Shown here in pieces: positions 42,057-56,302 of a stretch of 64,000 bases of DNA. Positions within the stretch are counted from its first letter, which is position 1. Every line of letters begins with the position of its first letter. Made by a program: the position numbers and the translations under genes. Origin of the DNA: Anadara kagoshimensis (lineage: Eukaryota > Mollusca > Bivalvia > Arcoida > Arcidae); NCBI GenBank assembly GCA_021292105.1, contig CM037874.1, positions 35,886,185 through 35,950,184 on the forward strand, read 5' to 3'. A model generated the notes under the pieces. That model made no database searches and was not told the origin of the DNA. It saw only the letters and a program-made list of their open reading frames with translations.

Positions 42057-42704
42057 ATGTGTCTACTTTCGATTTGTCTACATATTTTCGTTTTTACTTT
42101 GCTTTTGGGCAATTTCAGTGTTGAAACGTCTGATGAAGCTGGCTCTTGTGTAAAAAGGAATTTATATCTAGAAGTATTTAAAAATTTAACTTCATGTGCG
42201 GTATCTTATGATTTAGTGTCAAATTTTCTATCATGGAAATTGGCAAAACAGCTGCATTTAGAGAAGTTTCCATTGGACCCTGAAAAGAACAATAATGTAA
42301 GGGAAGTCAAAGACTGTATATTTTCCATAGTCAATCCAACACCATTTAGAACAAAAGTACAACTTGTTGGAACCTCTGTGAAAGTTTTAAAGCATATCTT
42401 AGATTTAGATGCAAAAGTATTGGACCAAACTGACTTTATTTCTTTTGTGAGTGGAGGACATGTGTTGGAAGGGACCACGCCCCTTTCTCATAGATATGGT
42501 GGACATCAGTTTGGAAGTTGGGCGGATCAGCTTGGAGATGGACGGGCTGTAATGATTGGTGAATATGTTAAAAAAAGGGAGAGCGATGGGAACTTCAGTT
42601 AAAAGGTTCTGGTTTAACACCGTATTCAAGACGAGGTGATGGCCGGGCGGTGCTTAGATCTTCTGTCAGGGAATTCCTCTGTAGTGAGGCCATGTATCAT
42701 TTAG
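42057..42704 (+). CDS. SELENOO: SELENOO-like exon 1 (copy 1)
   Basis: From ATG to CATTTAG, then donor GTATGATG, phase 1. The last 186 nt (42519-42704) are the part repeated in copies 2-5. The A run at 42571-42577 has seven bases where the others have AATAAAAA, shifting the frame after GEYVKK. Restoring one base would give GERWELQL. Confidence 0.88.
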
Positions 42705-44847
42705 GTATGATGAAAAGAATATTATGCATACATGTACATATTAAATTTATTTTTTTAATGATAGGAATGATTTTAGTAATACATATACTCAAAAATACTT
42801 GGTAATAAATTGATTTTATCACTTTGAAAGTGCATGAATGTGCATAAATAAAAAATATTCAAATCTCATCAAAATATCCATTGCCATCTGCAGGGTACTT
42901 GGGGTTGGGAATTGATAGTTTTGATAATAGGTTGTGTATCCCTCCAAAAGATGAAGAATTTGCCTTAATAACTGTCTAGTAATGCATCAGATACAGGTTT
43001 CAAGTTCCAGGTTCTTCACAGAGTTTTGCCTATGCTATGATCAAGTGGTCTAAAGGGTGCTAACAGACCACAGCTTCTCTCTCACCACTTTGGTATGTTT
43101 ATGTGTTTGTTTTACCAAAAACCATAGTTTTCATTCCATTTTTCCTCCACCACTTTAGAACTGACTGTCTTGATATTAGTGAATCAATCTATCTACTGGG
43201 GTGTTGAAAACATAACTCAACCAAACTCCACTCTACCCCTATGCTGTACATTTCAGCAAGATAACTTTTATATACAATTTTAAAAATTTTTCCAAGTATT
43301 ATCTAAAAAGGATTTTAAATTTAGGACAAAAAATGTGTTTCTGCTAACACTCTTAGATTGACCATATGGTCGGACATAGCTGAGTGGTACTGTCACTGGT
43401 TTTCTAAGATGATTTTCACTTTCTGCAAATACTAGAGCTGTAAAAAGCTCAATACTAGAATAGTCTTTTGGATGAGACTAAAAACCGAGGTCCCATGTCT
43501 CAGTGCACACTAAAGACACCTCTGTAGAGTCCGAAAAAGAGAAGGCCACCTGTGGCCACTACAGAGGGCACTTACAACCACAAGCGATTGAAACAGACTG
43601 AGCCAAGTTAGATGTGGGATGATGATGCCAACTTGAATGTTGTTTGTCAAAATAAAGTCATATAAACTTTAGGCATAAAACTTTAGGGTCAACAAGGTAA
43701 GCAGAAATACATTTGGGGATGGGCATAAGAAAAACTGCTTCAAATAAATTTATTGTCCTATTTTAGGTGTACCAACAAGTAGAGCTGCTACATTAACTGT
43801 GAGTGACGATCCAATTATCCGAGACCAGTTTTATGATGGGCATCCTATAAAAGAAAGAGGAGCTGTTGTGTTAAGACTAGCAAGATCCTGGTTTAGAATC
43901 GGTTCTCTGGAAATACTGGCAAAGAAAGGTGAAACAGAACTACTGAAAACTCTTACCGATTTTGTCATCGAGAATTATTTCCCATCTATTGACATACACG
44001 ATAAAGACAGGTATTTGCTATTTTACAGTACAGTTGTGAAAGAAACGGCAGAAATGATAGCCAAGTGGCAAAGTGTCGGATTTACACATGGAGTCTGTAA
44101 CACAGATAATTTCAGCCTTTTATCTATAACCATTGATTATGGGCCCTTTGGGTTTATGGAAGTGTATAATCCTGACTTTGTTCAGAACACATCAGATGAT
44201 GAGGGAATGTACAGCTATAAAAACAACCAGAAATAGGTATATTTAATTTAGATAAATTAGGACAAGCTTTAGTTCCTCTGTTAGATTCAAACCAAATTCA
44301 ACAAATTGAAACCATCTTGAAAGGTTATGTCCAAATTTATAAACAGAAATATATGGAAATTTTTCGAAGAAAACTCGGTTTTGTAACTATTGAAGAAGAT
44401 GATGAACAACTTGTTGCGATATTGTTAAAAATGATGGAAGATAGAAAGTCAGATTTTACAATGACATTCAGACAAATGGGGGAATTATCATTAGAAAATC
44501 TGGATAGTAAAATTATACCAAAATCTGCATGGGCTTTGAAACATTTGTCTTCACATGACTGGTATAACAGGTGGATCAAGGCATATCGTCAACGGCAACA
44601 GCGTCAAAACATATCTGATGAAAGACGACAAAATATAATGAATAACATTAATCCAAGATATGTGCTTCGAAACTGGATAGCTCAGAAAGTTATTGCACAA
44701 GCTGAGAATAATGACTTTGAAGGTGTGAGAAAAGTTTTAAAAATTCTTGAAAATCCTTACACTTTTCAAAAAGAAGCAGAAGAAAATGGCTTTGCTTCAC
44801 CTCCTCCATACTGGGCAAAATTTCTGAAAGTTAGCTGTTCATCTTGA
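42057..44847 (+). CDS. SELENOO: Protein adenylyltransferase SelO-like, Cys form, copy 1 (two frame breaks as sequenced)
   Basis: SelO-family pseudokinase that transfers AMP from ATP to Ser/Thr/Tyr of target proteins. Exon 1 42057-42704, intron 42705-43766, exon 2 43767-44847. About 576 aa when read by the array consensus (human 669). Start at the first ATG (42057) after an in-frame stop; residues 1-~19 ([20 protein letters not shown]) look like a signal peptide, and two N-glycosylation sequons (NFS, NLT) follow. Family motifs: [38 protein letters not shown] (ATP-site Lys), [26 protein letters not shown] (catalytic Asp region) and IDYGPFGFM (metal-binding DYG). It ends KVSCSS then TGA, with Cys where human SELENOO has Sec (VTUSS). 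As given, copy 1 has a one-base loss in the A run at 42571-42577 and another near 44221. Only this copy has the 5' end and promoter. Confidence 0.9.
43022..43225 (+). mobile_element. SINE family B in SELENOO-like intron (repeated in all copies)
   Basis: ATGATCAAGTGGTCTAAAGG head, CACAGCTTCTCTCTCACCAC, TTCATTCCATTTTTCCTCCA and GAACTGACTGTCTTGATATT. Equivalent copies lie about 2.7 kb apart at 45735, 48431, 51126 and 53823. Confidence 0.7.
43370..43640 (+). mobile_element. SINE family C in SELENOO-like intron (repeated in all copies)
   Basis: tRNA-like head GGTCGGACATAGCTGAGTGG with no clear B box. Then come TTTTGGATGAGACTAAAAAC, CGAGGTCCCATGTCTCAGTG and GGCCACCTGTGGCCACTACA. A third SINE-like family, seen only inside the array units. 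Confidence 0.6.
43767..44847 (+). CDS. SELENOO: SELENOO-like exon 2 (copy 1), terminal
   Basis: After CTATTTTAG. It encodes (G)[18 protein letters not shown] through [19 protein letters not shown] to KVSCSS and TGA. One A is missing in TATAAAAACAACC near 44221 compared with copies 2-5, breaking the frame. This copy alone reads NPDFVQNT; all others read NPDFVPNT. Confidence 0.88.
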
Positions 44848-44891
44848 TATACAGGTCATGGAAATATATATATGTATGTAACTATGTAGAC

Positions 44892-55631: not shown

Positions 55632-55984
55632 TATACAGGTCATGGAAATATATATATGTATGTAACTATGTAGACAATAAATGTGGAAATGGGAAACTTC
55701 TCTTACAAATTATTATACCCCCACAAATGAAGTTAGAGGGGTATATATGAATCAGCCTGTCCTTTTGGCTCTGTCTGTCCGTCTGCCTGGTTGTCCGTCC
55801 CAATATCGTGTCCACTCAGGAGGTCAAAATAGGGGTGGGGGAGGAGGGGGGGGGGTATTTGGCTCTCAAGAGAGAGTTCTAGTTGATGTTTCAGAAGAGG
55901 AGTGGATTCGAGTGATGTTGTAGGCCCCAGTCAAGATTCTATCACTTATATTGAGACGGTAAATTGGTATACAGCTGAATTTGT

Positions 55985-56302
55985 CCCAGTCAAGAATATT
56001 TCACTTATATCGAGTCATCGCCAGCTTAAAGCGAATGTACAGAAATTTTGCCTTTGTGTTGCACTGATGCCATTAAACAGCAGAGTTCTTTATCATGCCA
56101 CACCTGCCATGACACGGGACCTCGTTCATTTTAAGTTCCCATCCAAAAGAATTGTGACTTTCATTTCATAATGCTGAGTGCTTGGCGAAAGAACAGTCAC
56201 TATCCACTTTCAAGTCTTGGGTCAGACCCGGTTGGGGTTCGAACCAACGACCTTCCACTCAAGGAGAGAGCACTCTACCAACTGAGCTACCGCAGTGGTT
56301 GA
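55985..56302 (-). mobile_element. SINE family A at the right edge of the array
   Basis: CCCAGTCAAGAATATTTCAC and GTCATCGCCAGCTTAAAGCG at the left, GGTTGGGGTTCGAACCAACG (B box) and CAACTGAGCTACCGCAGTGG (A box) at the right. Its left end carries the array breakpoint (55990). Confidence 0.9.

Follow-up and report, generated by a model that had tools for sequence, protein, structure and literature searches.

The DNA analyzed here carries five tandem copies of the 3' part of a SelO gene, and a counterpart with one unit is present elsewhere in the same assembly. The window is a stretch of 64,000 nucleotides (C18:35886185-35950184) from an assembly with 36 contigs and 1.115 Gb in total. In it, five head-to-tail units of ~2.69 kb apiece span 42516-55990 by self-BLAST. 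We consider it probable that this array is a young, heterozygous copy number variant of part of a gene (five units versus one), with the intact gene on the other haplotype and the extra units as neutral passengers.

Shifted self-alignments of the array gave 98.8–99.2% identity, and a repeat search of the window found five-copy families with start-to-start spacings of 2687–2704 bp. Chance is ruled out for five 2.7-kb copies at ~99% identity. The sequence-only reading had proposed a five-fold head-to-tail amplification of the 3' part of a SelO-type gene at 42519-55990, recent and nearly identical throughout. The five tandem copies are borne out, the extent was right to a few bases, and the near identity holds, with a pattern beneath it of mainly indels and few substitutions; the recency agrees with ~0.1% substitution between units. 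For comparison, units were cut at a fixed word, and the array ends 42516 and 55990 are the cut ends plus the junction homology; unit 5 is 2688 bp long once its final four homology bases are counted. The SelO gene has two exons, and each unit contains its intron, exon 2, and poly(A) signal, preceded by the 3' part of exon 1. With a slash at the breakpoint, the left flank of the array reads GGAAGT/TGGG, the right flank TCCCAGT/CAAG, and the unit-to-unit join TCCCAGT/TGGG. Comparing these letters, we found 3 bp of homology (AGT) at all four joins. The novel junction is common to 4 of 4 joins, two of which differ by a 1-base run length.

Table 1 Features of the SelO array and its edges (window coordinates)
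Feature	Position	Strand	Remarks
SelO exon 1 coding part, copy 1	42057..42704	+	ATG at 42057; donor GTATG; array begins inside exon at 42516
Left breakpoint microhomology AGT	42516..42518	.	Recurs at each join and at 55988-55990
Unit 1	42516..45215 (cut 42520-45215, 2696 bp)	+	Two private substitutions, one of them P356Q
SelO exon 2, copy 1	43767..44847	+	Acceptor TTTTAG at 43757-43766; ends ...KVSCSS-stop
AATAAA poly(A) signal, unit 1	44892..44897	+	Motif search; five matches, one per unit
Unit 2	45216..47913 (2698 bp)	+	Self-BLAST, unit cutting
Unit 3	47914..50608 (2695 bp)	+	Q393R and R493G in common with unit 5
Unit 4	50609..53302 (2694 bp)	+	Unit cutting, comparison to majority
Unit 5	53303..55990 (cut 53303-55986, 2684 bp)	+	Q393R and R493G in common with unit 3; private Q370H
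tRNA-derived SINE-like element	55985..56299	-	Abuts array right end; six other copies in window

When the majority sequence of the five units is continued upstream into unique sequence, the two-exon gene encodes a protein of 576 aa. Its ATG and a signal-peptide-like N terminus, judged as such by eye, occur once, upstream of the array, as the sequence-only reading had stated for the start codon and signal peptide. Donor, acceptor, and AATAAA are kept in all five units. Copy 1 as written carries a 1-nt deletion in exon 1, which shifts the frame, and another in exon 2. Units 2-5 start within exon 1 without the N-terminal ~153 residues, so that no complete SelO is encoded by them, and they keep the stretches LKG, NTDN, and DYGPFGF. 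The assignment to SelO, likewise made earlier from the letters, is upheld by Pfam PF02696, which matches three open parts of copy 1 with 45.9, 179.6, and 59.3 bits against a cut-off of 22.8 (E = 1.3e-52 and 4e-16 for two open parts of exon 2), and by bacterial SelO/YdiU chains in the PDB (6k20, 6iii, 9jym, and 6eac), which match the majority protein with a best E of 1.7e-110. These chains align with the protein through to its C-terminal residue, 576, beginning at residue 131 for 6k20 and at 84 for 6eac, and in the 6k20 and 6iii alignments LKG, NTDN, DYGPFGF, and the C-terminal VSCSS are all aligned. Unlike known SelO/YdiU, it has an extra N terminus with a signal-peptide-like start, and the 3' part of its gene is tandemly amplified. 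The active-site stretches of SelO are conserved in the majority protein, for which AMPylation activity is predicted; the LKG stretch is presumably the ATP-binding lysine region. Vertebrate SelO has selenocysteine near the C terminus, whereas a cysteine occupies that place here, where the protein ends in KVSCSS. Roles of the DFG-type Asp and of Asn in the SelO active site are described in PMC8097203. Our literature search for selenoprotein O tandem arrays in bivalves found no papers. Of 26 pattern matches in a scan of genome contigs with the one-unit protein, two were relatives, the best with 44% identity over residues 89-576, and this single-protein scan, which reaches close relatives only, gave no sign of a recent bacterial transfer of the gene.

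The second SelO gene of this type lies at C18:35079383-35082201, ~849 kb upstream of the array locus in the same orientation and ~5% diverged from it. It has one unit and 576 unbroken codons. The gene order TPC1-DRC10-SelO is found there too, and the two loci are largely colinear: the first 33 kb of the 40 kb fetched around the one-unit locus align in order with the window, from ~22.8 kb on past the window end, with unaligned stretches between, and the last 7 kb gave no match of 250 bp or more with the expected partner. DRC10 exons and TPC1 exons each show 99% amino acid identity between the loci. Measured in 300-bp windows, substitution divergence between the loci lies between 1.0 and 19.7%, the highest values perhaps reflecting mismatched repeats. 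Had the array come from another haplotype, divergence might change abruptly at its edge; these windows show no such change at 42516, and the idea was dropped. Values of dS/dN by NG86 are 0.086/0.012 for SelO, 0.052/0.003 for DRC10, and 0.125/0.005 for TPC1; within SelO, dS is 0.010 upstream of the unit (dN 0.014) versus 0.115 inside it. The TPC1 exon at 24544-25017 (minus strand), named from PDB 6c96, adjoins the SelO gene region, the DRC10/IQCD exon at 27004-28008 (plus strand) was named from PDB 8j07, and the open reading frames at 28512-28982 and 34047-34313 appear by eye to be later DRC10 exons. Human TPCN1 and IQCD are neighbors, and the TPC1-DRC10 adjacency may be an old conserved linkage. 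Upstream of the SelO start, a 27-bp tandem repeat of 10.9 copies at 41173-41465 also occurs at the one-unit locus.

Whether the two loci are alleles or paralogs bears on how the array is read. Haplotypes retained side by side would leave conserved single-copy genes as close pairs, and the MCM, TCP1, and CDC45 genes are generally single-copy in animals. Grouping the matches into genes by eye, we obtained eight MCM groups, two of which are paired on one contig (C11 and C13), with two others of the eight, on C8 and 26 Mb apart, counted as different genes. Of 11 TCP1 groups (87 of 115 candidates scored), five are clearly paired (C11, C7, C9, C19, and C18) and one partly (C16). CDC45, a weak control, gave one unpaired match of 54 positions with 71 of 194 candidates scored. 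Same-contig pairs therefore occur in 8 of 20 conserved gene groups, counting the partial C16 pair, each within ~2.9 Mb and in either orientation. Such nearby pairs suggest retained haplotigs. Another, multi-exon SelO gene also occurs twice on C11, at 11245083-11251946 and 12877441-12883444, ~1.63 Mb apart.

We judge it rather unlikely that a recent segmental duplication of ~33 kb or more made the two loci true paralogs, with the array arisen in one paralog and possibly fixed. Their shared orientation, large colinearity, and ~5% divergence would fit such a duplication, as would the low dN/dS in DRC10, TPC1, and SelO as a whole and the 849-kb spacing. The divergence between the loci is also high for alleles, and the lack of a match in the last 7 kb around the one-unit locus speaks against allelism too. 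Moreover, among the fetched pairs, the differences amount to 2.8% and 1.7% for the two MCM pairs, and the C11 SelO pair differs at 190 of 2289 columns of its longest block, or 8.3%; as the former diverge less and the latter more, one common age is not established, and this unevenness is the main argument against allelism. However, pairs of unrelated conserved genes in 8 of 20 groups are more readily explained by retained haplotigs than by a series of independent local duplications, and for this reason the array is probably heterozygous, with five units on one haplotype versus one on the other. We infer that the two loci are alleles: the array would lie on one of two haplotypes kept side by side in the assembly of a highly heterozygous animal, and the other haplotype would carry one unit and an intact gene. 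The copy-number variability between individuals suggested by the sequence-only reading thereby becomes probable, given that the assembly also contains the locus with one unit, the count of five being that of the assembly as written. Large insertion/deletion differences between two haplotypes of one highly heterozygous animal are described in PMC9646362, and most of the inserted sequences over 199 bases there were transposons. The present case would resemble that one in the large insertion/deletion difference between haplotypes; it differs in that the sequences there were mostly transposons and that the haplotypes here are unphased.

The differences between the units have an unusual composition. 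Compared with the majority, and leaving out one long G-run, we counted 35 indel events, eight substitution events at six sites, and two complex events. The indels (28 deletions and seven insertions) are mainly 1 bp long, mostly in homopolymers, and nearly all private to one unit, and 28 of the 35 touch runs of three or more. Their density is similar in coding sequence (2.7/kb; 17 frameshifts) and intron (2.3/kb; 12 indels). Between the majority and the one-unit locus, there are 145 mismatches and 14 gap openings, and the indel:substitution ratio between units is inverted relative to this comparison (Fisher p about 2e-20). Because of that inversion, the differences between units are read as mostly long-read consensus error where short reads cannot be placed, and the frameshifts in particular look like unpolished error of this kind. 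Over the 5 x 1269 nt of coding sequence in the array, units 1-5 carry 2, 2, 3, 5, and 5 frameshifts, 17 in all. No frameshift was found in 4898 unique coding bases versus 17 in 6345 array bases, a biased control in which the TPC1 and DRC10 stretches had been chosen for being open. Frameshifts are also absent from the one-unit SelO (1728 nt) and the upstream 459 nt of exon 1, which were not chosen for openness (p about 0.0065, calculated by hand). The six substitution sites amount to 2.8 differences per unit pair, or ~0.106% with 2650 bases as denominator. Set against the 145 mismatches with the one-unit locus, this substitution count makes the units ~fifty times closer to one another than to that locus.

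Somewhat less probable than paralogy is an error of assembly in the copy number, whereby the real array would be shorter or longer or a loop was walked several times. The concentration of frameshifts in the units, with none in the one-unit SelO or the upstream part of exon 1, would agree with this. An artefact would nevertheless require a join that is absent from both flanks and has 3 bp of homology, and an assembler is not expected to invent a join with a 3-bp overlap; furthermore, two substitutions are found only in units 3 and 5, and the units are therefore not all one consensus. That the frameshifts are real, and that all units including copy 1 are decaying pseudogenes, is improbable. Two to five coding frameshifts in each unit, and an amino acid change at each of the four coding sites among the six substitution sites, are what decay might produce, but the inverted indel:substitution ratio and the confinement of nearly all indels to single units, mostly in homopolymers, argue for consensus error instead.

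When changes are polarized against the one-unit locus as outgroup, unit 1 has two private derived changes and units 2 and 5 have one each, and two more occur only in units 3 and 5. The changes common to units 3 and 5 suggest a two-unit step in the growth of the array. The resulting order A-A-B-A-B would be explained by duplication of an A-B pair, and gene conversion between units would serve equally. For the proposed heterozygous array, we envisage that a stretch from within exon 1 to just beyond the 3' end of the SelO gene was recently duplicated in tandem, its breakpoints meeting at 3 bp of homology through end-joining or template switching, the two being inseparable here; this would have created a second, partial copy. 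Growth to five would then have proceeded between near-identical units, probably including the two-unit step, for example, by unequal crossing-over.

The right breakpoint of the array lies at the tail of the SINE-like element, but a SINE-mediated event was rejected, as the 3 bp of homology give no ground for it. The one-unit locus lacks the element at that place and has a different stretch of ~400 bp instead. Two of the six other SINE-like copies have Rfam tRNA matches, which were discarded as tRNA genes because both lie inside the copies; ARAGORN found no tRNA genes in the window. The unit intron carries a dispersed element at unit positions 885-1100 (window about 43400-43615). Of 40 genome matches listed for the unit, 39 are this element (39 of 5186 candidates scored) and the remaining one is the second SelO locus. 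A satellite of 145-bp units occupies 62806-64000, up to the window end.

As for products of the array, copy 1 covers the whole SelO gene and, provided that both of its frameshifts are consensus errors, SelO should still be produced from this allele. A start region is missing from units 2-5. No new product need therefore be assumed, and the extra units, most likely silent, would be neutral passengers. The new transcripts that the sequence-only reading had envisaged find no backing in the letters, where nothing points to them. It is very unlikely that the array functions as a single start region served by any of five equivalent terminal exons, with SelO variants or dosage effects as the outcome: the kept splice sites and poly(A) signals and the Q393R and R493G encoded by units 3 and 5 would suit it, but the terminal exon of copy 1 is the first in line and is followed by a poly(A) signal. 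We give hardly more credence to a segregating allele whose five terminal-exon modules would yield SelO forms differing at residues 393/493 or an altered dosage of secretory-pathway SelO.

Recent tandem partial-gene duplication or copy number variation with breakpoint microhomology is a known general class, and the present array shares its head-to-tail arrangement, 3-bp homology at the join, near identity, and copy-number difference between two homologous loci, with no categorical difference. The kind of event is already known; the present analysis adds a one-unit counterpart within the same assembly, together with evidence that most of the apparent frameshifts are consensus error. The locus cleanly exemplifies a young tandem amplification of part of a gene, seen alongside its one-unit counterpart. 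An apparently fixed gene array can be a variant of one haplotype where an assembly keeps both haplotypes. A further warning is that failed polishing can leave frameshifts in such arrays, so that a set of SelO pseudogenes might be called in error by a pipeline.
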